Made by a program: the position numbers and the translations under genes
Shown here: in pieces, positions 550-23,873 of the stretch
How the letters are laid out: each line of letters opens with the position of its first letter
How positions within the stretch are numbered: position 1 is the first letter of the stretch
Notes under the pieces: model-generated
The model's database searches: none
Told to the model about the DNA's origin: nothing
The model's input: only the letters and a program-made list of their open reading frames with translations
NCBI GenBank assembly: GCA_016210495.1
Contig: JACQUC010000083.1
Location: 1 to 48,956, forward strand
Direction: 5' to 3'
DNA: 48,956 nt
Origin: Chloroflexota bacterium
GTDB taxonomy: Bacteria; Chloroflexota; FW602-bin22; JACPRP01

Positions 550-3500
550 TCAATCAGTAACTCTCTCCAAAAGAGCTAACGGAAAGTGCGCGCACACCAA
601 AGACAGGGGGAGACTAGGCGTGCCCCTCAGCTCGTCCACGACTAGGTCCTCCTCAGTAAGGATATCGCGATATTCTTGCCCGATTTTGTCGCTTGGAAGG
701 ACAAGCCTAGTATCCCCCCAAACTTGCGATCCCAACGGTGGCCGTTCCTTTCCTTCCATCAGGCTGACTACTAGGCGCGGAACCACGATCAGGGTGGCCT
801 CCTCTCCGCGCGTTCGCACGAAGCTACACACGTGGCGTCGCCTCTCACCACGGGCATCTAATGGCAGATAGTCTCCGGCTGAAAATAGCTGCTCGTGGGC
901 GCGGCGAAAGTTGAGCGTGCGGTACATCAAGTAAAGCTTGATCCGCCCGTCGTGGCCCGAATCGAGAAGCTCGCCAGCCAACTGCACCAGTCCTCCACGG
1001 TCGATTCGCTCCCTTAGCTCGGCAAGCAGGGATCTGCGCCTCTCGTAGTCCACCGGCCTCCGATTGTCTGGGTCCACCAGACCATAATCCCACAGCTCGG
1101 TGCCCTGATAGATGTCAGGAACGCCCGGCGAAGTGAGCTTCAGCAGCGTCTGCGCCAGGGCGTTGTACCAGCCGAAGTAAGCTACCCGGCGCTGGAATGA
1201 CACCAGGTCGTCGACGAACGGATCGTCTTTTTCGCATTTGAGTAGGCGATGGACGAAGTCCTGAACCGCCGTGTCGTATGCTTCGTTTGGGTTTACCCAG
1301 CTAGTGTGTACTTTGGCCTCCTTGGTCGCCTTGTGCATGTAGGCGGCGATACGCTCTCTAAATCGGGCGAACTCACCCAAGGACAAAGGCCCATCCGGCC
1401 AGGTTCCCAATAGGGTCTGGTAGAGCAGGTATTCATCATTGCGATCGGGAGCCAGTTCATCGTCCACAACGACCTTCTTTGGATCGTTTATTCGACTCCA
1501 TCTGAGTAGGGCAGCTCTCCATTCATCCGGCATCTCCGACAGCACGTTAATGCGGGCTCGCACGTCTTCGCTACGCTTGGTGTCGTGTGTCGAAGTCGCC
1601 AGCAGAGACTGGGGCCAGCGTCGTTGACGCTCGACATTTTGCTTGTGGAAGGCCGGGACCGGAATTCCGAATCGCTCGGGATGCCCGCCCACCTCGTTGA
1701 GCGAAACGAGACGGTTGTAGACGTAGAAGGACGTGTCCTCCACCCCCTTCGCCATCACGGATCCCGTGATCTGCTGGAACTTCATGACCAGATCGATCAA
1801 CGCGTGCTGATCTTCCTCCGAGAAATCATTGAGATTTCGCAGCAGAAGAGAGTCGCGAACGAAATCGAAGATGGCCTCGGCGGTCCGCGGGTTGCGCTTT
1901 TTGGCCTCTGCCACAGCAACTTCTATGCTGATCCGGTCCTCTCGCCTGACGCAGTCCGGGCCCGTGACATAAGTGCGATATACCGGGAGAGCCGCGATGA
2001 CTTCGCGGATGGCGAACGTGAGACTGTTGAGCGTGAAGTCTCGGTAGAGTCGGTTCTTCTCCGCGATTCGCTCGAGTTGGTGGCCAAGAGCATTGATCTC
2101 GCTGACCATCGAAACCAGCATTATCATCTTCTTTGTAGAATTCGTCAGACTGGAGAAACTCACCTCCTCACCGACGAACCTGCCATAAATGCTATCGAAA
2201 GCCTTGCCATTCCTGGTGTCCACAAAGAGACCGTTCACAGCATTGAGGAAGTCGTAACCCGTGGTACCGCAAACTGGCCAGTCCTCGGCGAGGAGCTCCC
2301 CGCTGGAGAGAATCTTCTCCACTACTACATAGAGAGGCCAGTGGAGAGCAGAGCTTCTGTTGTCGCCAGTACTCTGCTGGAACCACGCCGACGTAGCCTC
2401 CTCGAGCTCGTTTCGAGAGTATTCCTGGCCCAGGCGGTCCTGAAGTTTGTGCAGAAGGTAGCTCTCCTGAAGAAGATGGAAGTAAAGTCGAGGGTTCCAT
2501 AGGCCGTCGGGATGATCGATCCTGAGTCCGGTAGCTTTACCTTCGGTCAACAATCGCAGGACCAACCGATGCGAGGCCTCAAAGACCTCGGGCAGCTCCA
2601 TGTGAATGGCGGCAAGCTCGTTAATGTCGAAGAAGCGACGATAGTTTATCTCCTCGGCGGCGACTCGCCAGAAAGCAGGACGGTAGGCCTGTTCGTCGAT
2701 CAATTTGTCGAGCAAATCGAAGCTGCGGGCGTCGCCAACTGTGCCGTTAAACGACTGCACCGCCATGTCGATCGCGGCTCGCACATAGGCGCTCGCCCGG
2801 TATACCGCCGCGATGCGTGCCTTGATTACCTCCTTCTCCCTGTTCCGCTCCGCGATCCTCTCAGGGTCCGATTCGGTTTGCAGGGGCAGATAACTCAACG
2901 CGGTGAGAATGCTCCGCAACTCTCGAACGTGTTCGTTTTCCTCACCAAGTGCCTGAACCAGAGTGCCCAGTTGGTGTGTGAGAATGCGGCTATAGGTACG
3001 TGGAGCTACCGGCAACTTGACGTTGTGGTAGTGAATGAAAAATGCCCCGTCCTCGTGAGCCAGCCGGAACTTCCCGCTTTCCAGCACCCTGCCGTACTGA
3101 TCGTCCAGGGTTGGCAGGAGTACCTTGTTATGAAGTTCAGCTTTGACGGGGCGCCAGTCGATGTCGAAATAGCAGGAATAGACCGAGCTGGGGCCGTTCT
3201 CCAGAACGTCCATCCACCAGATATTGCTGGTATCGCCAATGCCCATATGGTTCGGCACGACGTCGAGCACGAGTCCCATATTGCGCTCTCTCAACTCCGC
3301 AGAGAAGGCTTCAAAATCATCTGGGCCGCCCAGCGCGGGGTTAAACCGGCTGTGGTCGCAGATATCGTAGCCGTGGCTGCTTCCAGAGCATGGCTTCAGG
3401 AGAGGGGAAGCATAGCAGTCGCTGATGCCCAGCTCGTGCAGATACGGCACCAGAAAACGAGCATCTCGAAAAGTAAAACCCGGACTGAACTGGAGACGGT

Positions 3501-6036
3501 AGATGGCAGAGGGCACGCGCTTTTGGCCGGAGATTTCCGCAGCCATAGCCAGTATTCTCACGGTGTCTTTCGATGAACTCTCTTGCATCTCCACTACCTC
3601 CGTTACTCGGATCCCAAGCTGTTCGCCCAGCCTCACAAAATGCGTGAACGATACGTGGTCTAACCGCTTGCTGTGCTGAGTGCCATCTGCCAACATCGCC
3701 CGCAGCGCCTGCAAGCACTCGAAATATTCGTTCTGCACCTTCCACAGATTGACCTCGAAAGGCAGCGAACGAACCATATCCAGCGTCTTCCGCAGCCGTT
3801 GGAGCAGTTGAAGGTCCGTCGGGTTTGTATGGAACTGCACGATTGCTCGCTCGATGTTGTGCTGCAGCGCATATCCAAGGCCAGATCCGTCGAGCGTAAT
3901 CCCCCATTCCCTTGCCTCGTCCACGAGACCCGCGACGCTTTCGACGTCGAGCTCGTCGCTCTCGAAAATTCGCCGGAGCCGATTGTTGATGGCCAGCTCG
4001 GAAGCTTCCCGCCAACCGTTTGGTAGAGGGGCCCCCATATTCAGGAGAAAGCGCATGGTTGGCGCGTGGTGTTCGTAGACCTGGCGAAACACAGCCTCGG
4101 TGTCCGCCACAGCCGTGTCCAAAAGAGTTGCCAGAATCCTGCGCTGCTCGTCACGAAAAAGCATTCTCAACGAGTAGGTGCGCTGGCCGAAGCTTTTGTC
4201 CAATAGCCGGAGCAGCTCCGTGAGGTCGGCTCGATCGAACGCTTGACTCAACTCCTGCACCAGCGCATTGAATTCGCCTTCGGACTGCGACTCGCGGATG
4301 CCGCCACTCAGGTTGTGATCGCCAAGGTGTATGACGCCGAAATCAACCTCCTCTGCCTCGCCAGTGATTTCCGAGGAAATCCTGGCCCTGCCAATCGCCA
4401 GCTTGACCTTCCCCGTCAGCAGTACGGAATGGGCCTCGCGGTTCACCGAATAGCAGTAGATCCGAGCCTTATCGCCATGCTCCTCGAACAGAGAGCAAAT
4501 GGCGTAATGGGCGCCTACCTTGTGAAGGTCCGGGAGCGCAGGCCTTACCATCTTCTCATAGATGTGACGAGCGTCGCCCCATTCCGGAATGTTGCTCTGC
4601 GCCTGCTCCAACAGACCGAGAAATCCCGGCTCGAGCGAACGGTCGAATGATTCTTGCGCTAGCTGTAGCGCACGGCCAGCATATTGCAGTATCTGCGCTG
4701 TCTCGATCCCGGAGACCTCATCGAAGAACCAGCCGCAGCTCGTGTACATAAGCATCGCATGCCGCTGCATTTCCAGGAGTTTGAGCGCCAGAGTCTTCTC
4801 GGTCTCGTTCAGATCGCGTTTCGCATGTTCGCCCAGGAATCGCTCCACGCTCTCCCTCGAGCGGTCAAGGATTACCGAGATGTACTCGTCCCTGGCTGCC
4901 CAAGGGTCCTTGAGAAGAAGCCGCCCCTGCTTCTCGTAGTATGAGGCCAAGGCTTCGCGCAGCCAATCCAATGCCTCTCGTAGCGGCCTCCGCCACGACT
5001 GGTTCCACTCCGGGTGGCCGCCCGAGTTACAACCACAGTCGCTCTTCCATCGTTCGAGCCCGTGAGCACAGCTCCAGGACGTGTTCTCGACTATCTCCAC
5101 CTCGTGTGTTGGAGGATGTTTCTCCAGGTACTCTCCGTAGTTGGTGAGGCGGACAAGTTTGTGGGACTCGATGTGATGCAGCGCGTAGGCCAGTGCCATG
5201 TCCCCATGCCTGTGATGGTGTCCGTAGCTCTCACCGTCGGTCGCGATGTGCACCAACTGCGGCCAGGAACGAGACGACGAAAAGGCGTCGGCAAGTCGGC
5301 TAGCCAGCTCCCGGCCATCGTTGAGCAACCCTTCGAAAGCGACGGCGCGGGATACGGGGCCATCATAGAAGAATAGGCTTATCTTTCTGCCTGAAGGCGT
5401 ACCCAGTTCGTAGGCCATTGTGGGATCGATGCGTCCACCTCCTACATCTTGCCAGTTGCGCTCGCCAATCTTGCGCACACGGCTGGCCTGGTGCTGCGCC
5501 AGGAGGGTGAACCGTATTCCCAGCTCAGCCAGGATGTCCAGAGTATCCAGATCAACGGCTGTCTCGGGGAGCCACATCCCTTCTGGGAACCTGCCGAAAC
5601 GATGCTCGAAGTCGCGGATCCCCCAGAGCACCTGAGTGCGCTTGTCTCTCGCGTTCGCCAGAGGGAGGATCACATGGTTGTAGGCTTGGGCCATAGCCGA
5701 GCCGTGACCTGAAAACATCTCCCGGCTCTCCACGTCAGCCATCAGGATCGACTCGTAGACATCGGAGGCTTTACTGCTCATCCAGGCGAGCAGCGTAGGT
5801 CCGAAGTTGAAGCTCATCCTGGCGTAGTTGTTTGTGATCTTCATAATGCGGCCTTCGCTGTCCAGAACGCGCGAAGCCCCATTCGGCCCGTAACATTCCG
5901 CCGTGATCCGCTCGTTCCAGTCGTGGAAAGGATAGGCCGAGTCCTGGATCTCTACGGCCTCGAGCGTGGGGTTCTCACGCGGCGGCTGGTAGAAGTGGCC
6001 GTGAATACAAACATATCGGGAACTGCTTTCACTCAT
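550..6036 (-). CDS. treY: GH57 (DUF3536-type) glycosidase fused to maltooligosyltrehalose synthase (TreY)
   Basis: A fusion of about 1828 residues. Residues 1 to ~830 are a glycoside hydrolase 57 protein with a long helical C-terminal part: HGHFYQPPR near residue 12, the nucleophile motif WLPETA (Glu158), and TDGESYGHHH (Asp267) as the likely acid/base. Residues ~839 to the end are TreY (GH13_26): PSAIYRLQF, DVVPNHMG, GLRIDHPDGL with the catalytic Asp, and PGVPDIYQG near the end. TreY rearranges the reducing end of an alpha-1,4-glucan to a trehalose linkage; GH57 members cut or transfer alpha-glucans. The ATG at 6036 is preferred because the family-like N-terminus follows it; a GTG at 6060 is the alternative, and neither has a clear Shine-Dalgarno. 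It is the last gene of the glgE operon, after a 194-nt gap. No TreZ partner is in the window. Fusion of these two families is unusual. Confidence 0.9.
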   Translation of the reverse strand: MSESSSRYVCIHGHFYQPPRENPTLEAVEIQDSAYPFHDWNERITAECYGPNGASRVLDSEGRIMKITNNYARMSFNFGPTLLAWMSSKASDVYESILMADVESREMFSGHGSAMAQAYNHVILPLANARDKRTQVLWGIRDFEHRFGRFPEGMWLPETAVDLDTLDILAELGIRFTLLAQHQASRVRKIGERNWQDVGGGRIDPTMAYELGTPSGRKISLFFYDGPVSRAVAFEGLLNDGRELASRLADAFSSSRSWPQLVHIATDGESYGHHHRHGDMALAYALHHIESHKLVRLTNYGEYLEKHPPTHEVEIVENTSWSCAHGLERWKSDCGCNSGGHPEWNQSWRRPLREALDWLREALASYYEKQGRLLLKDPWAARDEYISVILDRSRESVERFLGEHAKRDLNETEKTLALKLLEMQRHAMLMYTSCGWFFDEVSGIETAQILQYAGRALQLAQESFDRSLEPGFLGLLEQAQSNIPEWGDARHIYEKMVRPALPDLHKVGAHYAICSLFEEHGDKARIYCYSVNREAHSVLLTGKVKLAIGRARISSEITGEAEEVDFGVIHLGDHNLSGGIRESQSEGEFNALVQELSQAFDRADLTELLRLLDKSFGQRTYSLRMLFRDEQRRILATLLDTAVADTEAVFRQVYEHHAPTMRFLLNMGAPLPNGWREASELAINNRLRRIFESDELDVESVAGLVDEAREWGITLDGSGLGYALQHNIERAIVQFHTNPTDLQLLQRLRKTLDMVRSLPFEVNLWKVQNEYFECLQALRAMLADGTQHSKRLDHVSFTHFVRLGEQLGIRVTEVVEMQESSSKDTVRILAMAAEISGQKRVPSAIYRLQFSPGFTFRDARFLVPYLHELGISDCYASPLLKPCSGSSHGYDICDHSRFNPALGGPDDFEAFSAELRERNMGLVLDVVPNHMGIGDTSNIWWMDVLENGPSSVYSCYFDIDWRPVKAELHNKVLLPTLDDQYGRVLESGKFRLAHEDGAFFIHYHNVKLPVAPRTYSRILTHQLGTLVQALGEENEHVRELRSILTALSYLPLQTESDPERIAERNREKEVIKARIAAVYRASAYVRAAIDMAVQSFNGTVGDARSFDLLDKLIDEQAYRPAFWRVAAEEINYRRFFDINELAAIHMELPEVFEASHRLVLRLLTEGKATGLRIDHPDGLWNPRLYFHLLQESYLLHKLQDRLGQEYSRNELEEATSAWFQQSTGDNRSSALHWPLYVVVEKILSSGELLAEDWPVCGTTGYDFLNAVNGLFVDTRNGKAFDSIYGRFVGEEVSFSSLTNSTKKMIMLVSMVSEINALGHQLERIAEKNRLYRDFTLNSLTFAIREVIAALPVYRTYVTGPDCVRREDRISIEVAVAEAKKRNPRTAEAIFDFVRDSLLLRNLNDFSEEDQHALIDLVMKFQQITGSVMAKGVEDTSFYVYNRLVSLNEVGGHPERFGIPVPAFHKQNVERQRRWPQSLLATSTHDTKRSEDVRARINVLSEMPDEWRAALLRWSRINDPKKVVVDDELAPDRNDEYLLYQTLLGTWPDGPLSLGEFARFRERIAAYMHKATKEAKVHTSWVNPNEAYDTAVQDFVHRLLKCEKDDPFVDDLVSFQRRVAYFGWYNALAQTLLKLTSPGVPDIYQGTELWDYGLVDPDNRRPVDYERRRSLLAELRERIDRGGLVQLAGELLDSGHDGRIKLYLMYRTLNFRRAHEQLFSAGDYLPLDARGERRRHVCSFVRTRGEEATLIVVPRLVVSLMEGKERPPLGSQVWGDTRLVLPSDKIGQEYRDILTEEDLVVDELRGTPSLPLSLVCAHFPLALLERVTD

Positions 6037-6230
6037 AGCACTGCCAAGTGTAACATACACCGTCGAAAGGCTTCACGTTTCAGCGTTAGAAGAGTTGCAA
6101 ACCGGGGAGTGTCTCCAGTCTAGTAGTTCTGGCTCTTTGCAGTTCAGGTCACATTTCTGCTGCCACTCGGGCTTGGCTTCGGCTGTGCAGCCCAGAGGCA
6201 TCCCCCGGGACCTCGGGCAAACCTATTTCG
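6037..6230 (-). other. Spacer between glgB and the GH57-treY gene
   Basis: About 194 nt between two genes read in the same direction. I see no convincing terminator with a T-run and no strong promoter, so read-through from glgB is plausible. Confidence 0.4.
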
Positions 6231-8207
6231 TTAGTCAACTCGTGAATCTCTCTTGAAGAGCACCACTGACAACGGCGGCAGCGTGAGATTCAAGGAGTGC
6301 AAGTGACCCTGAAAGGGGATCGGTGTCGCCTCCACCAACCCCATATTGCCGTGACCGCTCCCGCCATACTGCTTGGCATCGCTGTTGAGAACCTCTCGGA
6401 AGACTCCCCCTCGTGGAACACCTATCCGGTAGTTATGGCGTGGCACCGGAGTGAAGTTGCACACGACGACCACGCAGTCGTCAGCAGCCTTCGCTTTGCG
6501 TATGAAGGCCACGACGCTCTTGTCGACGTCGCTACAATCGATCCACTTGAAGCCGTCCTGCTGACAGTCTAATTCGTGCAGTGCCGGCTCACTGCGGTAG
6601 AGATTATTCAGGTGCCCCACCCACTCTTTCAACCCGGCGTGGGAGACGTGCTCCAGGAGGTGCCAATCCAGGCTTTCGTCGTGGTTCCACTCTCGCCACT
6701 GGCCAAACTCCCCGCCCATAAAGAGTAGCTTCTTGCCGGGCTGAGTCCACATGTAGCCCAGTAGGAGGCGCAGGTTGGCAAACTTCTGCCACTCGTCGCC
6801 CGGCATCCTGCCGAGTAACGAGCCTTTGCCGTGCACCGCTTCGTCGTGAGAAAGAGCGAGGACGAAATTCTCGGTAAAGGCATAGAGCATCCTAAAGGTC
6901 AGCCTGTCGTGGCTGTACTTGCGGAAGATGGGATCCTGCGACATATACTTCATAGTGTCGTGCATCCAGCCCATGTCCCACTTCGCGCCGAAGCCAAGCC
7001 CCCCTACGTAGTTTGGCCTGGAAACCATCGGCCACGAAGTGGATTCTTCGGCTATCGTCAGAGTATCTGGATGGTTCTGGTACACGGCCTTGTTGAATTC
7101 ACGAAGGAACTCGATGGCCGCGAGGTTCTCCCGACCCCCGTGCTCGTTGGGAATCCATTCACCCTCTCTGCGCGAGTAGTCGAGATACAGCATCGAGGCC
7201 ACCGCATCCACCCGCAGGCCATCCGCATGGTACTTGTCCAGCCAGAAGAGTGCGCTGCTCATCAAGAAGCTACTGACCTCGCTTCGGGCGTAATTGAAGA
7301 TGTAGCTGTTCCAGTCCGGGTGTAACCCCTGGCGGGCGTCGGCGTGTTCGTAGAGGTGGGTTCCGTCGAAAAAGCCGAGTCCGTGCTCATCGGTGGGGAA
7401 GTGCGAAGGCACCCAATCAAGAATCACGCCGATGCCCTGTTGGTGCAGGTAGTCGACCAGATACATCAAGTCCTGCGGCGTCCCGTAGCGGCTCGTCGGG
7501 GCGAAGTAGCCTGTCGTCTGGTAGCCCCACGAGCCGTAAAAAGGATGCTCCGTCACGGGCAGGAACTCTACGTGGGTGAAGCCCGATCTCCTGACATATT
7601 CAGCTAGCTTGGGTGCCATCTCTCGATAGCCGAGAGGCCGATTCCCATCTTCCGGCACTCGCCTCCACGAGCCAAGGTGCACCTCGTAGATGGCGATGGG
7701 AGCAGCAAGGGCGTTGTAGCGGTGCCGCTGCCTCATCCACTCGGCGTCCCTCCACTGGTAGTTCAAATCCCACACGATGGACGACGTGTTTGGCGGCGTC
7801 TGGCAGTGGATGGCCAGTGGATCGGCTTTGTCCACCCGATAGCCCCCAATCCGAGACACGACGTGGTACTTGTAAAGGCTACCCTTGCCCACGCCAGGGA
7901 CAAGACCCTCCCAAATACCCGATTGACCTCGCGGCCGCAGAGGGTGACTTCCCTTGTCCCAGTTGTTGAAATCGCCCATCACGGACACCCGCTCAGCGTT
8001 CGGCGCCCACACAGCGAAATAAGTCCCCTGGATCCCATTTGTCGTCCACACCCGCGCCCCTAACTTCTCGTAGAGACGACTGTGAGTCCCTTCATTGAAG
8101 AGGTAAAGATCGTCTTCAGTCACGATTGTGGCATCGTAACACATCTTTGGCACACGCGTCTCCCCGGAGAAAGGCGTACTCTCACGCCCAGCATCGTGCT
8201 TCCGCAT
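6231..8207 (-). CDS. glgB: 1,4-alpha-glucan branching enzyme GlgB
   Basis: Makes alpha-1,6 branches in glycogen-like glucan; it is the final step of the GlgE route. The protein is 658 residues, within the normal range. An N-terminal carbohydrate-binding module ([21 protein letters not shown], split here as [10 protein letters not shown] and [11 protein letters not shown]) precedes a GH13_9 barrel. The barrel has [10 protein letters not shown], the nucleophile in [10 protein letters not shown] (Asp334), the acid/base in TIAEEST (Glu387) and LSHDE. The C-terminal beta domain ends LSVVLFKRD. The ATG at 8207 is chosen; an in-frame TTG at 8225 would add six residues and sits only 18 nt after the treS stop. 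Neither start has a clear Shine-Dalgarno, so translation coupled to treS is likely. It is the fourth gene of the riboswitch-led operon. Confidence 0.95.
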
Positions 8208-8243
8208 TCTATGGAGCCCGTCCAAGGAATTGTAGTCTAATCG

Positions 8244-11606
<3,363 letters not shown>

Positions 11607-11616: not shown

Positions 11617-13611
11617 TTATGCATAGTACTCGAACTCTCGCTCCGTTCGTACCCGGCGCCGCACCCGGTAGACCTGGGCCGGGGCGATCTGCGGGTTGAG
11701 CTCGACGTAGTTCCTCGGGCCGTGCCAGAGGTACCTGGCGTCGCCGAGCAGATCGTGCATCTGGTAGGGTTGCTTGGGATCAAGGCCAAGCGTTTCGAGC
11801 GGTAGTTCCACCCATCCCGCCTGAGTGTGATGCGGATCTAGGCTCACCACCACAACGACTGTGTCTGACAGGTCGGCAGTCGATTTCGAGTAACAAATGA
11901 TCCGGTCGTTATCCACCGGGTGAAAGCGCAGGCTCCTGTCGTGACGGAGCACTGCGTTCTCTCGGCGTATGCGATTTACCCGGGCGATGAAATCCCTCAA
12001 GCTGTCCGTTCTCCCGACCTCCCAGCGCTTGATCTCGTATTTCTCAGAGTCCAGGTACTCTTCACTCCCCGGCTCTCTGGAACGGTTCTCACACAGCTCG
12101 AAAGCCGGCCCGTAGATGCCGTAGCTGGCCCCAAGGGTCGCCGCGAGGACCAGGCGGGCCATAAACGCGGGGCGGCCTCCGAATTGCAGATTCTCGGGCA
12201 GGATATCAGGCGTGTTTGGCCAGAGGGACGGGCGGAAATACTCCCTCACATCGGTTTGGGTGAGTTCTTTGAGGTAGTTGGTCAGTTCCCACTTAGTGTT
12301 GCGCCAGGCGAAGTATGTGTAGGATTGCGTGAAGCCCAGCTTTGCCAGGTGGTACATGACACTTGGACGAGTGAAAGCCTCGGAGAGAAAAATCACGTCC
12401 GGATAATCCTTCTTCACCTCGCCTATCAGCCACTCCCAGAAGCGAAACGGCTTGGTGTGCGGATTATCCACCCTGAAGATGCGGATGCCCTGACCGATCC
12501 AGAAGAGCACAATCCCCTTGAGCTCGTCCCACAGGCTCTGCCAGCAGTCGGTTTCAAAGTCAAAAGGGTAGAGATCCTGGTACTTCTTCGGCGGGTTCTC
12601 GGCGTATTGAACGGTGTTGTCCGGACGCCAACTGAACCATTCGGGATGTTCGCTTACGTACGGATGATCGGGTGAGCACTGGAAAGCCAGGTCCAGCGCG
12701 ATCTCTATGCCGCTCTTGGCCGCTCTGTCCACCAGCCGTCGAAAGTCCTCCACAGTCCCCAACTGCGGGTGGACGGACTTGTGGCCGCCCTCCTTGGACC
12801 CTATCGCCCACGGGCTGCCTGGATCGTCAGACTCCGGCGTGGGAGAATTGTTCTTCCCCTTCCGATGGGTTTTGCCTATAGGATGGATTGGAGGCAGATA
12901 CAGCACGTCGAAACCCATCGAGGCAACGTAGGCGAGGCGGTCCTCACAATCCTTGAATGTTCCGTGCCTGCCGGGTTCCGGCGAGCACGAGCGAGGGAAC
13001 ATCTCGTACCAGGCGCTAAAGCGAGCCTTTTCACGATCGACCACCACGGACAGTTCTCTGGGGTAGATGGCCGCGAATCGCCGATCCGGGTATTTCTCCA
13101 TCATCCGAGCAAGTTCATCGTCCAGCGCTCGTTCAAGGGCCAGAGGTAGGTCATCGCCGGCGCGGCGCAAGACTCTGGCGTATTCCTGGAGCGTTTGCAC
13201 ATCAGAGCCTGCAGCGCGCTCGCTCATTTCCTTTACCAACACTGACCCGACGAGCAGATCGACAGACACGTCCTGGCGTGCATCGACCTTCTTTATCAGA
13301 TCTCGCTTCCAGGTTCCAAGTCGGTCTACCCACGCTTGTAAGGTATAGCGGTAGCGGCCGATGTCGGTCACCGTGAACTCTCCCCGCCACCAGTCGTTGT
13401 CTACAGGTTTCAAGGTGGCCTCAGCCCAGTCCCGACTCTGCTCCTTGCGATACTTCAGAACGGCCGAAATGACATCGTGCCCATCGCCAAAGATCTGGGC
13501 CTCAACGACGACCAAGTCCCCAACCGTTCTTTTGGCCGGGTAACGGCCGCCGTCGATCTCCGGTTTGACGCCCTGTATGATCACCCGGCGACGACCTTCT
13601 TCGCTCTGCAT
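11617..13611 (-). CDS. glgE: GlgE, alpha-1,4-glucan:maltose-1-phosphate maltosyltransferase
   Basis: Extends alpha-1,4-glucans by two glucose units from maltose-1-phosphate, without ADP-glucose. The 664 residues match the family length. An N-terminal DUF3416 domain (IDGGRYPAKRTVGD, residues 19-32) is followed by a GH13_3 barrel with the nucleophile in RVDNPHTKP (Asp382), the acid/base in FLSEAFTRP (Glu411) and NTPDILPENLQ (Asp469). The ATG at 13611 is preferred: AGAGGTGG lies 11 nt upstream, and this start falls 19 nt after the stop of the zinc-ribbon gene. A GTG at 13653 would overlap that gene and adds a non-family extension. It is the second gene of the c-di-AMP-riboswitch operon. Confidence 0.95.
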   Translation of the reverse strand: MQSEEGRRRVIIQGVKPEIDGGRYPAKRTVGDLVVVEAQIFGDGHDVISAVLKYRKEQSRDWAEATLKPVDNDWWRGEFTVTDIGRYRYTLQAWVDRLGTWKRDLIKKVDARQDVSVDLLVGSVLVKEMSERAAGSDVQTLQEYARVLRRAGDDLPLALERALDDELARMMEKYPDRRFAAIYPRELSVVVDREKARFSAWYEMFPRSCSPEPGRHGTFKDCEDRLAYVASMGFDVLYLPPIHPIGKTHRKGKNNSPTPESDDPGSPWAIGSKEGGHKSVHPQLGTVEDFRRLVDRAAKSGIEIALDLAFQCSPDHPYVSEHPEWFSWRPDNTVQYAENPPKKYQDLYPFDFETDCWQSLWDELKGIVLFWIGQGIRIFRVDNPHTKPFRFWEWLIGEVKKDYPDVIFLSEAFTRPSVMYHLAKLGFTQSYTYFAWRNTKWELTNYLKELTQTDVREYFRPSLWPNTPDILPENLQFGGRPAFMARLVLAATLGASYGIYGPAFELCENRSREPGSEEYLDSEKYEIKRWEVGRTDSLRDFIARVNRIRRENAVLRHDRSLRFHPVDNDRIICYSKSTADLSDTVVVVVSLDPHHTQAGWVELPLETLGLDPKQPYQMHDLLGDARYLWHGPRNYVELNPQIAPAQVYRVRRRVRTEREFEYYA

Positions 13612-13630
13612 CAGTTGATCAGCCACCTCT

Positions 13631-13837
13631 TTAACCCCGACTGCGACGACCACCTATGGGCGCGCTGCGCGTGATTCCAGCCACCCTGGATCGGCGGACC
13701 ACTGGCCGACGCCGTTGGCTCGCACGCAAGATCGGCACTGAGCGGCCGCACTGCAAACAGCCAAGGGCATCCGGGTCGTTCGACAGATCAAGAAACAGGT
13801 CTCCGCTGCACCTCGGACAACCTTTTAGCAGGATCAT
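13631..13837 (-). CDS. Small zinc-ribbon protein, first gene of the glgE operon
   Basis: A 68-residue protein starting at the ATG at 13837, with a perfect GGAGGTG 6-7 nt upstream. The first half carries two Cys-X2-Cys knuckles (CPRC and CLQC, about 21 residues apart), typical of a single zinc ribbon. The second half is Arg-rich. Its role is unknown: the Arg-rich tail could bind nucleic acid or a polyanion. It lies directly behind the riboswitch terminator and 19 nt ahead of glgE, so it is translated first from this mRNA. Alternative ATG at 13843 gives two more residues but would overlap the Shine-Dalgarno. Confidence 0.7.
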   Translation of the reverse strand: MILLKGCPRCSGDLFLDLSNDPDALGCLQCGRSVPILRASQRRRPVVRRSRVAGITRSAPIGGRRSRG

Positions 13838-13884
13838 CGCCATCACCTCCAACACAGAAACCTGATGGCCGACATGCCGGAGAA

Positions 13885-13913
13885 CCAAAAAACCCGAAGG
13901 ATAGCCCCGGGTT
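13885..13913 (-). terminator. Intrinsic terminator of riboswitch 1
   Basis: On the minus strand AACCCG pairs with CGGGTT (13908-13913 with 13891-13896), followed by six T residues. It lies between the c-di-AMP aptamer and the zinc-ribbon gene, where an expression platform would be. Binding of c-di-AMP is inferred to favour this stop, as in known ydaO switches. Confidence 0.8.
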
Positions 13914-14055
13914 GCGTGCTATGCCTCTCTCACTTGCCTACGAGGTTAGCTGACGGGTTCGGGCTGAAAGAGCATGCCCTACTCGCCTCAGGCGAGATTC
14001 ACCCCACGAACTGGTTCCCCCGTTTCCTTCAAGAGGAATTCGGCCTATTCAATTG
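13914..14055 (-). promoter_or_regulatory. c-di-AMP riboswitch 1 (ydaO/yuaA family), leader of the glgE operon
   Basis: Read on the minus strand, it has the hallmark blocks of the ydaO/yuaA aptamer in order: AACGGGGGAACCA, GGGGTGAATC, a variable hairpin CTCGCCTGAGGCGAG, GCTCTTTCAGCCCGAACC, the invariant CCGTCAGCTAACCTCGTAGG, and GAGAGAGGC. This RNA family binds cyclic di-AMP and usually turns off genes for osmolytes, potassium and cell-wall hydrolases. Here it precedes a terminator and the trehalose/glucan operon. The family call rests on motif recognition, not a covariance-model search. Confidence 0.92.
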
Positions 14056-14063
14056 ACACCATC

Positions 14064-14092
14064 ATAATACATTTAGAGGCCGCTTCTGTCAA
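14064..14092 (-). promoter_or_regulatory. Sigma70-type promoter of the glgE operon
   Basis: On the minus strand a TTGACA box (14087-14092) and a TATTAT box (14064-14069) are separated by exactly 17 nt. The predicted start, near 14057, is just upstream of riboswitch 1. Confidence 0.85.
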
Positions 14093-14161
14093 GCCATTCG
14101 ACCCCTGGTCGTCTTGACTCAGTCACCATATCATCCCACCGTTATTGGGCTTGAGTGCTTG

Positions 14162-14190
14162 TTGACATCGACCGGCCAGTGTGCTAGTAT
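14162..14190 (+). promoter_or_regulatory. Sigma70-type promoter of the riboswitch 2 transcript
   Basis: TTGACA (14162-14167), 17 nt, then TAGTAT (14185-14190). The predicted start is near 14197. It is back to back with the glgE promoter, about 70 nt away. Confidence 0.85.
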
Positions 14191-14229
14191 GGGAACCACG
14201 AATTGATACTTGTCGGTCAAACAAAGGAT

Positions 14230-14392
14230 CAATTCGCCAATTGAATATGAATGGCCGAATCTTCCGCGGAAGAACGGGGGAACCAAAATTTTGGGGTGAA
14301 TCTCGCCTCAGGCGAGTAGGCCAACTCTTTCAGGCCGAACCCGTCAGCTAACCTCGTAGGCACATGAGAGAGGCGTAGCGTAAGTAAACGTC
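14230..14392 (+). promoter_or_regulatory. c-di-AMP riboswitch 2 (ydaO/yuaA family)
   Basis: It carries the same ordered blocks as riboswitch 1: AACGGGGGAACCA at 14273, GGGGTGAATC at 14293, the hairpin CTCGCCTCAGGCGAG, CAACTCTTTCAGGCCGAACC, the invariant CCGTCAGCTAACCTCGTAGG (14341-14360), and GAGAGAGGCGTAGC. It points toward the universal stress protein cluster, away from the glgE operon. Confidence 0.92.
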
Positions 14393-14420
14393 GACCCGAG
14401 GCTATGTCCTCGGGTCTTTT
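14393..14420 (+). terminator. Intrinsic terminator of riboswitch 2
   Basis: A perfect 9-bp stem, GACCCGAGG / CCTCGGGTC, with a CTATGT loop, is followed by TTTTGTTT. It sits between the aptamer and the first Shine-Dalgarno (AAGGAGG at 14432). Confidence 0.85.
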
Positions 14421-14443
14421 GTTTCGCGAAGAAGGAGGTTGCG

Positions 14444-14545
14444 ATGTCGGAGAAATTCTTGTTCCTGGGCAGCGTAGCTGACGAAGTTCAGCGGACCGCG
14501 CCCTGCCCGGTGCTGCAGGCCCGGGCTAACGACGAAGTACTTCAT
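14444..14545 (+). pseudogene. Relic of a universal stress protein C-terminus behind riboswitch 2
   Basis: A perfect AAGGAGG 5 nt upstream starts an ATG frame whose residues 8-28 (LGSVADEVQRTAPCPVLQAR) match the conserved C-terminal end of UspA-family proteins. The N-terminal domain is absent. The frame stays open to 14860 but then has no recognisable content and overlaps the intact usp gene in another frame. The likeliest reading is an internally deleted usp copy that kept its leader and start signals. A functional short peptide is not excluded. Confidence 0.5.
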
Positions 14546-14733
14546 CAATCGCAGAGCGTGGCCGACAAGTACGAGGCCCTGCGGCTCCTGGCGCCTGAAG
14601 GGCGCGAAGCAGTAGCTTCGCGAACAGGTCTCATCGTGGCGGGCCGCTGCCAACGCAGAGTTGGAGTCAGGACCCGAAGTGTGGTGGACCAGCTTGGTGG
14701 CGGCCATGCCACGGCCAGGGAAATGAGTTTGCG
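14546..14733 (+). other. Region between the usp relic and the intact usp gene
   Basis: No recognisable protein on either strand. It probably represents decayed or rearranged coding DNA downstream of riboswitch 2. Confidence 0.3.
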
Positions 14734-15174
14734 ATGCAAAGAAGATTCTACGGGCGAATACTGGTACCTTTGGATGGCACGGACCTGGCCGAGCAAATCC
14801 TACCGTACGTCGAGCCGCTGTCGAGGAGGTTCGGGTCGACAGTCATTCTGCTCGAAGTGATGTCGCCCCCCGAAGTAGAATTGACGCACACGCTGAGCAA
14901 GCTGGGGTCGGCCGTCGAGGCAACGCGACGGGAGGCCACGGACTATTCCGGTGCAGTGGCGCAGCGGCTCCGTGGCCGAGGAGTGACCGTTGAATGCCTT
15001 GTTGAACAAGGCCAGGCCGCGTTCGTCATCGCAGACACTGCTCGCCAGTTGCAGGCTGACTTGATCGCTATGGCCACGCACGGGCGAGGCGGCTTGAGGC
15101 GGCTGTTCTACGACGAGTTGCGACGGGCGGCGCCCTGTCCGGTTCTATACGTGCGGGCCAACGAGCCTGCCTAA
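14734..15174 (+). CDS. Universal stress protein (UspA family)
   Basis: A 146-residue single-domain Usp: N-terminal GRILVPLDGTDLAEQILPYV, a central ADLIAMATHGRGG and C-terminal APCPVLYVRA. Usp proteins act in the cytoplasm under starvation or osmotic stress. In ATP-binding members G-X2-G-X9-G(S/T) follows the THGRGG segment; here the expected second half (LGSVADEV) is replaced by LFYDELRR, so ATP binding may be lost. The missing segment is the very one kept in the relic upstream. The start codon has only a weak purine tract (CAGGGAAATGAG). It is likely co-transcribed from riboswitch 2. Confidence 0.88.
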   Translation: MQRRFYGRILVPLDGTDLAEQILPYVEPLSRRFGSTVILLEVMSPPEVELTHTLSKLGSAVEATRREATDYSGAVAQRLRGRGVTVECLVEQGQAAFVIADTARQLQADLIAMATHGRGGLRRLFYDELRRAAPCPVLYVRANEPA

Positions 15175-15379
15175 GCTAAGAAGAGCCGTGCCTCGATGCC
15201 GCTGTGGAAGAGTTCCGGCAACTTCAGCGTTGTCGGCATCAAGCTGTAGTCTCGTAGGTAAGCGGGTTATGGCGGGGGCCGCCGTCGTGGCCCAAGTAAG
15301 GGCAGCGAAGTCGGTTGTATCGGTGGTGGTCCGATGGCCCGGCGGCCCCTGCCACTGTCGAAGAAAGGAGCGCGTTTTC

Positions 15380-15853
15380 GTGAACGGAATGAAGCTGTTG
15401 TTGCTATGCATGGTCTCCCTGTTGGCGGTTTCCCTGCCGTTGCCTATGGCCGTCTACGCGCAGCCGTCCGACGCACCGATCGGGCCGGCGGCACCCGTGG
15501 GACGCGCCCACGTCAGTCCTCTGTTCGACCCCAACGGGCCCAGCGGGGGACCTGGCGTCTGGCTCTGGGACCCAAACGACGAAAACTGGATGTGGCAGCC
15601 AGCTCGGACGTTGAGCGGGCAGTTTGCAACGATGGCACTGAACGAAGGGCCGCCACCATGGCCAAAAGAGCCATCGTCGCTGTGGGTGGTTCCCACTTCA
15701 AGCGTCGGCTTCGTTTGGGTTTGGGATATCTACGCCTTCGCAGGAGCAGACGGCGGTGGCCCGCACTTCTGGAGACCGCGTTGGCGACTGGCCTACGGGG
15801 AGATCACCCTTGGCGGTGCAGATCAACCCGACATGGCCAGCGAAAGGAGGTAG
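15380..15853 (+). CDS. Secreted protein of unknown function
   Basis: The GTG start at 15380 has AAAGGAG 9 nt upstream and gives a 157-residue protein. The N-terminus is a classic Sec signal: MNGMK, a long Leu/Val core (LLLLCMVSLLAVSLPLPM), then AVYAQ as probable cleavage site. The mature part is rich in Trp, Pro and Gly (GPGVWLWDP, ENWMWQPAR, FVWVWDIYAFAG) and has no Cys pattern or known domain. It precedes a small membrane protein with an overlapping signal arrangement, so the two probably form a cell-surface pair under riboswitch 2. Longer in-frame starts upstream lack a Shine-Dalgarno and give no signal peptide. Confidence 0.68.
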   Translation: MNGMKLLLLCMVSLLAVSLPLPMAVYAQPSDAPIGPAAPVGRAHVSPLFDPNGPSGGPGVWLWDPNDENWMWQPARTLSGQFATMALNEGPPPWPKEPSSLWVVPTSSVGFVWVWDIYAFAGADGGGPHFWRPRWRLAYGEITLGGADQPDMASERR

Positions 15854-15857
15854 TCGG

Positions 15858-16205
15858 ATGTACCTGTCATTAGCAACTAGCACCACACGTCGGTTGAAGA
15901 ATCGCTTAACCCAAGGATCGAGCCGTCTTGTCATCCAGGTGGAGGTCGTCGTGCTGCTGTTGGCAGCAGTCGCGCTCACGGTGATGCCGCTGGAAACGGT
16001 GGCGGCGCTTGCGACCGTCTCGACTTCGGCTCAGCAGTTCACCGTCCAGCACAGGCCGGTGGTCGCGCTGGTCGGATTGATTTCCGTCGGCGTTTGCACG
16101 TGGCTGATGATGGCGCTCTCTTGCGCCACGCAAGGGCACATGATGCTTGCGGGCGAAGGCGAGCATGACCAGGATGATGGTAGGACCTTGCGCCGGGCAG
16201 CGTGA
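15858..16205 (+). CDS. Small two-helix membrane protein
   Basis: The ATG at 15858 lies 4 nt after the stop of the secreted protein and has AAAGGAGG upstream. The 115 residues hold two hydrophobic helices, about residues 25-50 (VEVVVLLLAAVALTVMPL) and 69-92 (VVALVGLISVGVCTWLMM). A charged His/Asp-rich cytoplasmic tail (GEGEHDQDDGR) follows. No family is recognised. It is the last gene before the promoter of riboswitch 3. Confidence 0.65.
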   Translation: MYLSLATSTTRRLKNRLTQGSSRLVIQVEVVVLLLAAVALTVMPLETVAALATVSTSAQQFTVQHRPVVALVGLISVGVCTWLMMALSCATQGHMMLAGEGEHDQDDGRTLRRAA

Positions 16206-16240
16206 TGGCCATCTTCACCACGCTGCAGGAAGGCTGCTTG

Positions 16241-16269
16241 TTGACAAGTGCGAGCAAGCATGCTAGCAT
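16241..16269 (+). promoter_or_regulatory. Sigma70-type promoter of the riboswitch 3 transcript
   Basis: TTGACA (16241-16246), 17 nt, then TAGCAT (16264-16269). The predicted start is near 16276. The architecture is the same as at riboswitches 1 and 2. Confidence 0.85.
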
Positions 16270-16334
16270 TGTTCGCGGCTTGATCCGCTGAGTCACAGGC
16301 ACCCGACGCAAGAACCGATTTAGCGTCAGGTGAA

Positions 16335-16495
16335 TCTCACAATTGAATAGTCTGGCCAAGTCTTCTGCGGAAGAACGGGGGAACCAACCAACTGGGGTGA
16401 ATTCTCGGGAAACCGAGAAAGGGTAGCTCTTTCAACCCGAACCCGTCAGCTAACCTCGTAGGCACGTGAGAGAGGCGTAGCATCACCAATCGTAA
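16335..16495 (+). promoter_or_regulatory. c-di-AMP riboswitch 3 (ydaO/yuaA family)
   Basis: It has AACGGGGGAACCA (16374), GGGGTGAATT (16394), the hairpin TCTCGGGAAACCGAGA, GCTCTTTCAACCCGAACC, the invariant CCGTCAGCTAACCTCGTAGG (16443-16462) and GAGAGAGGCGTAGC. The variable hairpin differs from copies 1 and 2 while the core is the same, which argues for selection on the fold rather than recent duplication. It leads the transcript that includes the MscS channel. Confidence 0.92.
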
Positions 16496-16522
16496 GTCCG
16501 GGGCTATGGCCTCGGGCTTTTT
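16496..16522 (+). terminator. Intrinsic terminator of riboswitch 3
   Basis: GTCCGGGGC pairs with GCCTCGGGC (9 bp, two G-T pairs) around a TATG loop and is followed by TTTTT. It is the expected expression platform of the third switch. Confidence 0.83.
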
Positions 16523-16648
16523 CGTTTGTTTGCAGCCGATGCGTGGCCATCCAGTCGTGTTTCGGACAGGTTGACGGCGCTGCCCCGCTTCCCTCAGCAC
16601 AACATCAGACCGAAAAACGCTGGCTCAGCTCGGTCAAAGGAGGGAGAA

Positions 16649-17089
16649 ATGATGATGACATTGTAGCGCCACCTGGGTCCGGCAAGAACCCCTGGCCAAC
16701 AGGTCGAGGTCGGCGTCGACGCGTTTGTCGCCGCCGGGATCGATGATCTAGCCAAGTATCGCATTGTTCAGCTTCTTTGCTCCAGACCGGAGGCATGCTT
16801 GAATGCTGTGAGCTACGCCGAGCATCTGGGGCTACGGCCTGTCGAACGCACTGCGGCGGAGCTGGAAGAGCTCGTGCAGCGATGCATTCTCGAGCGACAG
16901 GGCTGCAACGGCTCCACATTGTATCGGTTGACCGGCGACAGCCGCGTGCGGGGTCATGTTGTCAAACTGTTTGCCCTATCACAGGAACGATTATGTTTAG
17001 GACATATTCTTCGTCGCCTCGCCGTTCGATCGTTGGAGCGCATAAAATCAGAAACCAAAAGGAAGAGGCAGTCACGTTGTCGTGTTTGA
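16649..17089 (+). pseudogene. Winged-helix-type gene with an in-frame TAG after five codons
   Basis: AAAGGAGGGAGAA precedes ATG at 16649, which encodes only MMMTL before TAG at 16664. The same frame then stays open to 17089 and reads like a helix-turn-helix domain: DLAKYRIVQLLCSRPEA, AVSYAEHLGLRPVER, LEELVQRCILERQG and STLYRLTGD. This looks like a nonsense mutation near the start. Alternatively translation restarts at TTG 16799, which has GGAGG 5 nt upstream, giving a 96-residue protein lacking the first helix. A short regulatory leader peptide is a third reading. It is the first reading frame after riboswitch 3. Confidence 0.5.
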
Positions 17090-17412
17090 AGCGACCCGCG
17101 CACGGCTTCGGGAGAGGACGAGGTGAGTGCAACTGCCCCTTGCCATGCTGCCGAGGCGAGGAATGTGTTGTAGCAACCCGTATCCGGCAGGTCCAATTTC
17201 CCCGCAATTGCAGCGCACCTTGTTGCACGCTGTGACGCCTGCTTTGCGGGTCCCCGTTCTTTCGAGAGTGGGCCACACCGGCGTGGGACGTACCATTCTC
17301 TCTAGCAGTCTGCCGCCGTCGGTGCCGCCGGTGGCAGACGCTCCGAATCCCTCCGGGGATGAAGTAGTGGTTCCAGGCCAGTGTCGGTCGAAGAAAGTGA
17401 TTGGTGGTTAAG
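17090..17412 (+). other. Gap without a convincing gene
   Basis: No frame shows family features. The gap contains the first copy of a dispersed hairpin repeat (17260-17340). Confidence 0.35.
17260..17340. repeat. Dispersed hairpin repeat, copy 1
   Basis: An ~80-bp element starting TTTCGAGAG, then ACCATTCTCT, ending in the stem GTCTGCC / GGCAGAC (17308-17314 with 17333-17339). A diverged copy lies at 19334-19415. Confidence 0.6.
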
Positions 17413-17655
17413 ATGGAGCACGACTCAAGGTTGGAAGGTTATACGCCAACGCAGATGCTTTTTCTGAATCGCCTGGAGCGGTTGCTTTACGCGAGGAGGC
17501 AGTTGGTCGGCCTGCGTCAGGTGCCCTGGCCGCACAGGCTGGTCCCGTTCGCAATCCATTCTACGTTGCTAGACTGCAGGGAGTTAGGCGTCGAAGACGA
17601 GGCACGACGCATAATGGAAGCCTGTGCTGAATATTCTCCAAAAGAGGGTGGGTAA
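17413..17655 (+). CDS. Small protein of unknown function, just upstream of mscS
   Basis: The ATG at 17413 with GGTGG 5 nt upstream gives 80 residues, rich in Leu and Arg (MLFLNRLERLLYARRQLVGL), predicted mostly helical and soluble. It ends 6 nt before the MscS start, so the two are almost certainly co-translated. No family is recognised. Confidence 0.55.
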   Translation: MEHDSRLEGYTPTQMLFLNRLERLLYARRQLVGLRQVPWPHRLVPFAIHSTLLDCRELGVEDEARRIMEACAEYSPKEGG

Positions 17656-17661
17656 GGCAAA

Positions 17662-18780
17662 GTGAGTCAGGTTAGTTGGATTGACCTAGCCTCGGTAATC
17701 GTACCGCTTGGCGTCATCGTCGCCTCGCTGTTCGTGGGCTGGATCGCGAAACGACTGACGGACTGGTACCGTCGGTCCCGGACAGCGCAGGACGTGGTTC
17801 GGCCGGACGACGTAGTGCTGAGTATCAGTGAAGGCTTGATCCTCCCCTTTTTTGCCTTGGTGGGGACTCTGGTAGCCCTGCAAGTGTCGACTCTTCCCCC
17901 AGATGTGCGCGCTTACGCGAATAGCGTGATAGCCGCGCTCCTGGTGTTGGCTGTCACGCTGATCGCCGCGAGAGTGCTGAAGGTACTGATTCATCTCTCT
18001 TTGCCGAAGGTCGAACCCTTAGCCCAAATTGTGCCAGTGTTAGAACGCGTGGCACAAATAGCACTCTGGGCGATCGGATTGATGATCGCCCTCAGCTACC
18101 TCGGCGCGGATATCACGCCATTGATCACAACGCTGGGCGTTGGAGGGCTGGCCGCGGCGCTGGCCTTGCAGGACACGCTCGCCAACTTCTTCGCCGGATT
18201 CTACATCCTGGCCGATAGGCCGATACGGGTGGGTGACTATATCAAGCTCAGCAGCGGCGAGGAAGGGTATGTGATCGAGATCGGCTGGCGAAGCGCGAAG
18301 ATACGAACCCTCCCCAACAACGTGGTCATAGTGCCTAATCAGAAGCTTTCGCAAAGCATCATCACCAACTACCATATGCCGGAGCAGAGAATGTCCTTGT
18401 TGATACCTGTGAGCGTGAGCTATGACAGCGATCCGGCGAATGTTGAGGAGATACTGGTAGACATCGCGAAGACGGCCTCGCGTGAGATAGAGGGGATGCT
18501 GAGCGAGCCGGAGCCGTTCGTGCGCTTCATCCCGGGGTTCGGTGAGTACTCGCTTGACTTCACGCTCATTTGCCAGGTCAGGGAGTTCGTCGATCAATAC
18601 TACGTGCAACACGAGTTGAGAAAACGCATCTTCGCCAGGTTTGCAGAGGAGCACATCGAGATCCCATTTCCAGTGAGGACTCTACACCTATCAAACGGCC
18701 GCGACGGGCGAAGCAACGCCTGGCTTCAAGCCAGCTTGGGTAACGTAGCCTCGAAAGGCGCCGCACCGGAAACAGGCTAA
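17662..18780 (+). CDS. MscS-family small-conductance mechanosensitive channel
   Basis: A 372-residue inner-membrane channel that vents solutes on hypo-osmotic shock. There are N-terminal membrane helices (about residues 8-28, 55-75, 85-105 and 125-145). The pore helix and MscS signature follow (TTLGVGGLAAALALQDTLAN, then FFAGFYILADRPIRVGDYI). The beta domain (EGYVIEIGWRSAKIRTLPNN, VIVPNQKL) and a C-terminal alpha/beta cap follow. The start is GTG with AAGG upstream, right after the 80-residue gene. It lies in the transcript headed by riboswitch 3. A channel that releases osmolytes near enzymes making trehalose, both behind c-di-AMP switches, fits an osmotic role. Confidence 0.93.
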   Translation: MSQVSWIDLASVIVPLGVIVASLFVGWIAKRLTDWYRRSRTAQDVVRPDDVVLSISEGLILPFFALVGTLVALQVSTLPPDVRAYANSVIAALLVLAVTLIAARVLKVLIHLSLPKVEPLAQIVPVLERVAQIALWAIGLMIALSYLGADITPLITTLGVGGLAAALALQDTLANFFAGFYILADRPIRVGDYIKLSSGEEGYVIEIGWRSAKIRTLPNNVVIVPNQKLSQSIITNYHMPEQRMSLLIPVSVSYDSDPANVEEILVDIAKTASREIEGMLSEPEPFVRFIPGFGEYSLDFTLICQVREFVDQYYVQHELRKRIFARFAEEHIEIPFPVRTLHLSNGRDGRSNAWLQASLGNVASKGAAPETG

Positions 18781-18909
18781 CCTTTCGCGCTTCAGAACCC
18801 CTGAGTGTCAGGGGGACGCAAAAACCACTCAACTTGCAGTTGCAAGACATGTTGTTTTCCCTGCGCTCGGCGGCTTGGAGACTCGTGACTCGCGTCGAAA
18901 GGAGCAGCA

Positions 18910-23444: not shown

Positions 23445-23873
23445 TCACCATCGTTTCTGCCGCAGCAGTTCTAGAAACATTGTGGGCGACAGTATCTGGA
23501 CGTCCCTGTATTCCCCGAGTTCCAGAAGGTGAGAGTCGCCGCTGACAATGTAATCAGCCGCGGCGGCTAAGGCGCAGTCGATAAACTTGTTGTCCTCTGG
23601 GTCCTTGACGATGACCTCGACATTCTGCGTTGCCTCTACAACCTCTGCGAACATCCTCATCGTAGAAATGATCTTGCTAATCTCGTCCTTCGACATTCGG
23701 TGGCGAGCTTGAATGCGCTCGTAGGTCATAGCCTTCTGGTACTCGGCGAGGATGGCCTCCGATACGGCCAGTTCGAATACTCCGTCCTCCCACTGCTCCC
23801 AGATGTGCGCGGGCGGCCCCGACGGGGATAGGAAGCGGCTGACGACCACGTTGCTGTCGAGAACTACCCTCAT
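23445..23873 (-). CDS. PIN-domain toxin
   Basis: A 142-residue putative ribonuclease of the PIN family found in toxin-antitoxin pairs. Acidic residues of the metal site are in place: VVLDSNVVVS near the start, AILAEY (Glu), KDPEDNKFIDCA (two Asp) and YIVSGDSHLL (Asp). It starts 4 nt after the stop of the Phd-type antitoxin. Confidence 0.88.
   Translation of the reverse strand: MRVVLDSNVVVSRFLSPSGPPAHIWEQWEDGVFELAVSEAILAEYQKAMTYERIQARHRMSKDEISKIISTMRMFAEVVEATQNVEVIVKDPEDNKFIDCALAAAADYIVSGDSHLLELGEYRDVQILSPTMFLELLRQKRW

Follow-up and report, generated by a model that had tools for sequence, protein, structure and literature searches.

The three leaders and the genes behind them

The present study concerns a stretch of 48,956 bases from a Chloroflexota bacterium (contig JACQUC010000083.1, positions 1 to 48,956 of the forward strand; referred to here as the window) and in particular a 2.6-kb part of it, in which three RNA leaders of the ydaO/yuaA class, the riboswitches for cyclic di-AMP (c-di-AMP), lie in front of genes for glucan and trehalose metabolism, a universal stress protein (USP) and an MscS-type mechanosensitive channel. 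In a comparison of the whole window with Rfam (cmscan at gathering thresholds), family RF00379, with a gathering score of 38, accounted for all matches, three in number, each of full length (1-134 of 134) and scoring 102.5-112.9 bits. The aptamers of leader 1 (13920..14055, minus strand; 107.3 bits, E 1.1e-24) and leader 2 (14243..14377, plus strand; 112.9 bits, E 2.9e-26) are divergent and 187 bases apart, and that of leader 3 (16344..16479, plus; 102.5 bits, E 2.4e-23) follows about 2 kb further on. An earlier note, made from the letters alone, had proposed three such riboswitches within 2.6 kb; the covariance-model run bore this out with scores far above 38 bits, and the coordinates and parts given there (minus 14055-13914; plus 14230-14392; plus 16335-16495) are correct.

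Each leader possesses a promoter of the form TTGACA-17-TANNAT and a terminator hairpin with a T run, as had also been predicted. The promoters read TTGACA-17-TATTAT for leader 1 (14064..14092, minus, starting at 14092; 11 of 12 matches), TTGACA-17-TAGTAT for leader 2 (14162..14190, plus; 10 of 12) and TTGACA-17-TAGCAT for leader 3 (16241..16269, plus; 10 of 12). Together with a weaker minus-strand site at 14824 they make up the four promoter sites in 13600-18900, where shuffled sequences gave 1.5 ± 1.2. The hairpin scan placed the terminators at 13891..13913 (leader 1, minus, followed by TTTT), 14393..14416 (leader 2, plus, nine pairs, followed by TTTT) and 16494..16519 (leader 3, plus, followed by TTTCGTTTGT). 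The total of six terminator-like sites in the region does not exceed that in shuffles (5.1 ± 2.0); the three leader hairpins are those with the most pairs and stand directly 3' of the aptamers. The 20-nt core noticed earlier is present in all three leaders, but is not special to the locus: it reflects conservation of the family, because many relatives have the same core or a nearly identical form.

Leader 1 was said to head a GlgE/trehalose operon. The operon was confirmed, yet its first gene encodes a microprotein of 68 aa, a predicted zinc ribbon (CPRC...CLQC; 13631..13837, minus; likely start ATG at 13837, stop at 13631-13633), which stands directly before glgE. Its open reading frame (ORF) is preceded by GGAGG, and AGAGG and the glgE start follow immediately upon its stop; since only a few bases separate them, the two genes are probably co-transcribed. 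GlgE, the alpha-1,4-glucan:maltose-1-phosphate maltosyltransferase (11617..13653, minus; PF11896 189 bits and PF21702 111 bits, both over cut-off), probably starts nearer to 13611, behind the Shine-Dalgarno-like AGAGG. After gaps of 10, 18 and 170 nt, respectively, there follow a TreS-maltokinase (TreS-Mak) fusion (8244..11606; TIGR02456 892 bits, TIGR02457 502 bits), the 1,4-alpha-glucan branching enzyme GlgB (6231..8225; NF003811 993 bits) and a 1836-aa fusion of GH57/DUF3536 with the malto-oligosyltrehalose synthase TreY (550..6060; PF12055 397 bits, TIGR02401 947 bits), all on the minus strand and with NCBIfam scores over cut-off. GlgE, TreS-maltokinase and GlgB, all above their family cut-offs, thus occur together in the window as in a GlgE pathway operon.

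On the plus strand, leader 2 is followed, behind AAGGAGG, by a USP-like remnant (14444..14860) without Pfam match, whose likeness to a USP, by eye, is confined to the C-terminal end of that protein, and then by an intact USP (14734..15174; PF00582 84 bits), an ORF with a signal-like start as judged by eye (15380..15853; its longer form, 15188-15853, gave no tblastn hit in the fetched loci at E 1e-3) and a protein that looks membrane-like (15858..16205; the longer ORF 15756-16205 had neither a Pfam match nor a tblastn hit in these loci at E 1e-3). The USP cluster claimed for this leader therefore holds for one intact gene, but the first ORF is truncated and no clear cluster is seen. Behind leader 3 lies the frame of a small 'AGIDDLAKYRIV' protein (16649..17089, plus; helix-turn-helix by eye only, no Pfam match), interrupted by an in-frame TAG at codon 6, which could mean a pseudogene, a short leader peptide or an assembly error. 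The next gene encodes an 84-aa microprotein, helical by eye (17401..17655, plus), and the last a 372-aa MscS-type channel (17662..18780, plus), which exceeds the cut-offs of PF00924 (69.2 bits; 20.2) and PF21082 (41.8; 21), reaches 21.3 against the 23.1 of the transmembrane 2/3 model PF21088, matches the NCBIfam MscS models below their cut-offs, and is closest, with 80%, to a protein from a metagenome-assembled genome (MAG) of Chloroflexi.

Elsewhere in the window, a PIN-domain protein (23445-23873, minus) and an IS200-like transposase (26351-26740, plus) were noted, as well as PPDK-type ATP-binding and phosphoenolpyruvate-utilising domains on two adjacent ORFs (36631-39590, plus). A 2-hydroxyglutaryl-CoA dehydratase subunit, a BadF/BcrA-type ATPase and an AMP-binding ligase (44922-48634, plus) perhaps form an anaerobic acyl-CoA or aromatic cluster. 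A search of plasmid DNA with the window gave a single 104-base match, in Nonomuraea, and was uninformative.

Leaders and their targets in relatives

The survey of the class covered 294 genomes (draw C235), among them G021, which belongs to the class of G003, whose locus L003 is titled Dehalococcoidia. As G021 carries homologues of the MscS channel and the GH57-TreY fusion, the source of the window is probably a Dehalococcoidia-like member of the Chloroflexota. RF00379 was present in 127 of the 294 and the diadenylate cyclase (DAC) domain in 126; both occurred in 121 genomes and neither in 162, with the RNA alone in six and the domain alone in five (Fisher p 7e-68). In the Chloroflexia leaders were rarer (12 of 158 genomes). 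The further comparisons rest on 144 leaders, the three of the window and 141 others, the latter mainly the best-scoring of the matches listed, with contig ends cutting some of the stretches short. Five loci carry two leaders or more in the stretch fetched: G002, G003 and G253, which share one gene set; G040, where the distance is 3.1 kb; and G127, where two full leaders are separated by 6.4 kb and a truncated one precedes the first of them by about 400 nt. Among the fetched loci of relatives none had three leaders within 2.6 kb or a divergent pair, and the window is the densest leader locus of those examined. A possible tandem riboswitch is seen at L170 (1-604), where a leader truncated by the contig end and a full one about 400 nt away precede a piece of a GT20 gene.

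By a chain rule, a co-directional ORF of at least 90 aa was found behind 95 of the 144 leaders, with clusters of KamA-like (15), VTT/DedA-type (13) and GT20, OtsA-like (11) genes; a further GT20, that of L131, was missed by the rule. A Pfam scan covered 65 of these 95 first genes, the 30 left out being mostly cluster repeats, with some short ORFs, and its counts are not frequencies: GT20 10, GT2 7, trehalose-phosphatase 4, VTT 4, radical SAM 4, solute-binding family 5 and major facilitator superfamily 2 each, and single matches including BrkB, a class-III aminotransferase, GlgE and an Mrp/NuoL-type subunit. None of the Pfam matches of the 65 belonged to a K+ transporter family. The GT20 of L131 matched OtsA models below their cut-offs, that of L219 carries a fused trehalose-phosphatase domain, and trehalose need not be the product of these enzymes. 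Synthesis of N-epsilon-acetyl-beta-lysine by the KamA-like genes was considered and dropped, as the scores of the one tested against KamA models stay below the cut-offs.

The closest parallel to the window was met in G021, where one leader is followed by the small protein, MscS (54%), TreZ and a homologue of the GH57-TreY fusion; the assignment of its TreY part rests on the 67% identity to the window fusion over 1831 aligned positions. The small protein is the one to which the remainder of the window frame 16649-17089 is 39.6% identical over 111 aa, and it stands directly before MscS. G021 differs from the window in that this locus has one leader and one strand, TreZ takes the place of GlgE, TreS-Mak and GlgB, and the zinc ribbon was not found by our rule (given below). 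It has four leaders in all; two of the other three stand before GT20 (OtsA-like) genes and the last before an Mrp/NuoL-type antiporter subunit. In G127 a GT20 piece and, further on, an MscS-domain protein follow a leader, so that the window, G021 and G127 all have c-di-AMP leaders followed by both sugar-osmolyte genes and an MscS protein. The compact osmoregulatory module suggested by the earlier note is thereby partly supported, because G021 keeps the same small protein, MscS and GH57-TreY behind one leader, but not for GlgE, as 80 GlgE loci, taken up below, had no leader. Two tandem USPs directly precede a leader in G002 and G003. Such tandem USPs were noted directly before the leaders at L137 (6652-7764) and L138 (8875-9986); at L137 a VTT-domain gene stands behind the leader, followed by genes that by eye encode a membrane protein and an IspD-like protein.

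A second recurrent element behind the leaders is small. When ORFs of 35-130 aa with two CxxC pairs and a start no more than 450 nt downstream of the aptamer were sought, they were found behind 55 of the 144 leaders, including leader 1 of the window; the controls gave two (antisense), none (upstream) and none (2.5 kb further). One of the 55, at L219, looks spurious. Those of L123-L285 comprise at least four sequence types by eye, one with a constant C-terminal QRRRQPSHGK(L/I)(R/K)L, and an alignment of 13 sequences finds 297 database proteins, of which the 120 matches listed are named hypothetical protein or after likeness to other zinc-ribbon proteins such as TFIIS, TFIIIB or rubredoxin. The ORF behind leader 1 agrees with these families in its two CxxC pairs, size, distance and similarity to members. 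As 13634-13918 (minus) it ranked first of 901 window ORFs (E 5.3e-6, next 0.046) against a hidden Markov model (HMM) of 33 relatives' ORFs from behind leaders, which had been chosen by cysteine pattern, so that ORFs of this kind are favoured in the match. By tblastn it matched only L125 among the fetched loci (E 4e-5), and a short-word comparison with 5.8 billion proteins yielded no homologue candidate. The helical microprotein at 17401-17655 was likewise the best of the 901 to an HMM of five relatives (E 3.9e-9, next 1.1), in all of which a member lies downstream of a leader; tblastn against the fetched loci gave no match at E 1e-3. Behind the Chloroflexia leaders no zinc-ribbon ORF occurred in the 13, out of 17, with the core motif found; the link is therefore not phylum-wide on this evidence. 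Cysteine-rich ORFs of another type, with ALCAYAECRFCAHRMNV-like motifs, were observed behind c-di-AMP leaders at L291 and L302 (Chloroflexia).

Proposed switching mechanism and competing readings

In this riboswitch family the 3' tail forms a pseudoknot with an internal CUCUUU strand. The leaders retain this pairing, and loop and tail covary: the longest loop-tail pairing averaged 6.68 (137 of the 144 leaders) as opposed to 5.73 with tails swapped, where 200 swaps reached 5.98 at most, and leaders 14243 and 13920 of the window have seven contiguous pairs each. A terminator-like hairpin with a U tract stands behind 66 of the 144, against seven and five in two controls. The linker can pair with the loop and 3' arm of the terminator over eight pairs in leader 2 and ten in L148, while leaders 1 and 3 offer only five and six contiguous ones.

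At a probability of roughly 0.7, we read the three leaders as separate c-di-AMP OFF-switches, which act by transcription termination, bring several functions under one signal and are released at high osmolarity. These functions would be glucan/trehalose metabolism (GlgE, TreS-Mak, GlgB, GH57-TreY), the USP, the MscS valve and the two recurrent microproteins. At high c-di-AMP, the predicted ligand, the aptamer would fold and its 3' tail pair with the internal CUCUUU strand; the terminator would then form and transcription stop. Upon osmotic upshift or loss of K+, c-di-AMP is expected to fall, whereby the tail would be freed, pairing of linker and terminator would become possible and all three transcripts would be released; the balance of glucan and trehalose could then shift, and the MscS valve would be made ahead of a later downshift. 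The OFF direction is predicted because transcription of a published member, Streptomyces rpfA, ends early upon c-di-AMP binding according to the excerpted text of a review (PMC10117811). The osmotic trigger is one that we infer from c-di-AMP biology as presented in excerpts of two papers (PMC10117811, PMC5919688).

Several observations weigh against this reading. Over 57 leaders the pairing between linker and terminator was not significant (6.30 against 5.98 ± 0.16, highest swap 6.39) and is therefore kept as a possible mechanism only. A leader occurred in none of 80 GlgE loci from many phyla, three of which hold fewer than 300 bases before the match, so that GlgE behind a leader is seen only in the window. 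The first three of these loci are from Dehalococcoidia MAGs (68-69%), and loci titled NC10, Methylomirabilota, Binatia and Deltaproteobacteria are equally close (66-70%). Whole-genome searches of 14 GlgE carriers found leaders in four (G002, G003, G005, G010), in each case outside the fetched GlgE locus. A general rule that c-di-AMP controls GlgE was ruled out, no leader having been found near GlgE in other genomes. GT20 is present in 168 of the 294 genomes, mostly without a listed leader, and thus only a minority of GT20 genes carry one. The start of MscS lies 1.18 kb downstream of leader 3, past the frame with the early TAG. The genes on the plus strand also give an impression of partial decay, with one USP reduced to a remnant, the TAG in the sixth codon of the first frame behind leader 3 and no evident gene between 17090 and 17400. 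The earlier note had leader 3 heading an MscS transcript; MscS may still depend on leader 3 by read-through, because 13600-18900 shows only the leader promoters and the weaker minus-strand site at 14824.

The direction of the sugar pathway also counts against solute synthesis, which had been claimed for leader 1. The route through TreS-Mak, GlgE and GlgB leads from trehalose to alpha-glucan, and TreY together with TreZ leads from glucan to trehalose. TreZ was not seen among the scanned window ORFs (ORF 1-579 was not scanned), and net synthesis of trehalose is for both reasons no more than a possibility. The glucan and trehalose genes are there as claimed, but the operon may spend trehalose and is best named one of glucan/trehalose metabolism.

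The strongest competitor to the switch reading is that a single useful glg/tre leader was duplicated locally, that leaders 2 and 3, before partly decayed genes, matter little, and that the cluster is a matter of history. Among the 144 leaders, 14243 and 13920 are each other's closest copies (86.8%) and the nearest copy of 16344 is again 14243 (83.8%); the truncated USP and the early stop codon on the plus strand agree with such a course, and one of the five other multi-leader loci has an alike pair (G040, 90.4%). However, a leader from another genome comes nearly as close to 13920 (84.6%) as 14243 does, all three aptamers are full, exceed 100 bits and possess promoter and terminator, and in G021 the same MscS and the GH57-TreY homologue likewise follow a leader. 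Where the earlier note thought selection likely rather than fresh duplication, the identities would fit an old local duplication followed by conservation, and copies of little consequence seem to us possible but doubtful.

It is still less probable, though worth weighing, that the real targets of the leaders in this class are mainly small zinc-ribbon regulators or adaptors, with glgE as a passenger. The four-cysteine ORFs behind 55 of the 144 leaders (controls 2, 0 and 0), the top rank of the window ORF 13634-13918 (minus) against the relatives' HMM and the lack of leaders in the 80 GlgE loci speak for it. On the other side, 89 of the 144 have no such ORF by the rule and others head GT20, KamA-like or VTT genes, the short-word comparison gave no homologue of the window ORF, and with few bases between zinc ribbon and glgE a shared transcript is probable.

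It is very improbable that the leaders switch ON, or respond to a nucleotide other than c-di-AMP, and that their logic is thus reversed or unrelated to osmolarity: an older comparative study, in the part available, gives ATP as ligand of the motif (PMC3766115) and terminators were found for only 66 of 144 leaders, but all three window leaders have one, 121 of the 294 genomes have RF00379 together with the cyclase domain and 162 have neither, and rpfA transcription ends early with c-di-AMP in the excerpted review (PMC10117811).

Relation to known c-di-AMP riboswitches

As elements, the window leaders agree with ydaO/yuaA RNAs in full-length match, conserved core, tail-loop pairing and terminator platform; the arrangement as three separate copies in 2.6 kb, one of them divergent from the other two, sets the locus apart. 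The targets named in the excerpted review are K+ and amino-acid transporters and cell-wall enzymes (PMC10117811), whereas the window leaders precede glucan/trehalose genes, MscS and USP. Of the same riboswitch class are the leaders of Streptomyces rpfA and Bacillus subtilis kimA (ydaO), which in the sources as excerpted control a cell-wall hydrolase and a K+ importer, respectively, and are described singly there, and that of kdpFABC in B. thuringiensis, which controls a K+ operon, in this case a K+ pump in a different phylum (PMC6488665, as excerpted). Work on c-di-AMP and mechanosensitive channels deals, in the portion available, with an MscS suppressor mutation and not with riboswitch control (PMC5919688).

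The earlier remark that such a module was not recognised from the literature stands to the extent that no report of a three-leader arrangement or of trehalose genes behind ydaO was found in the partial texts searched, but the main target surveys lay outside the search. Nor was a paper found in it which joins the c-di-AMP riboswitch with a zinc ribbon, with Dehalococcoidia or with compatible solutes in Chloroflexota. The three riboswitches are well formed and represent a known element in an unusual arrangement; the more interesting result is that of the class-wide targets and the microproteins. On balance, the survey inclines us slightly towards a class-wide, undescribed c-di-AMP regulon in Dehalococcoidia, which would act on organic osmolytes and their release rather than on K+ uptake, with GT20/OtsA-like enzymes, TreY-TreZ and, here, GlgE-TreS, a KamA-like aminomutase set and MscS among its targets, and with several families of zinc-ribbon microproteins as the commonest target in the sample.

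In Firmicutes c-di-AMP is known chiefly for restraining the uptake of K+ and osmolytes. In a largely uncultured class of Chloroflexota the same RNA stands before glucan/trehalose genes and a valve for the release of solutes, and its leaders point to microprotein families without a known role.

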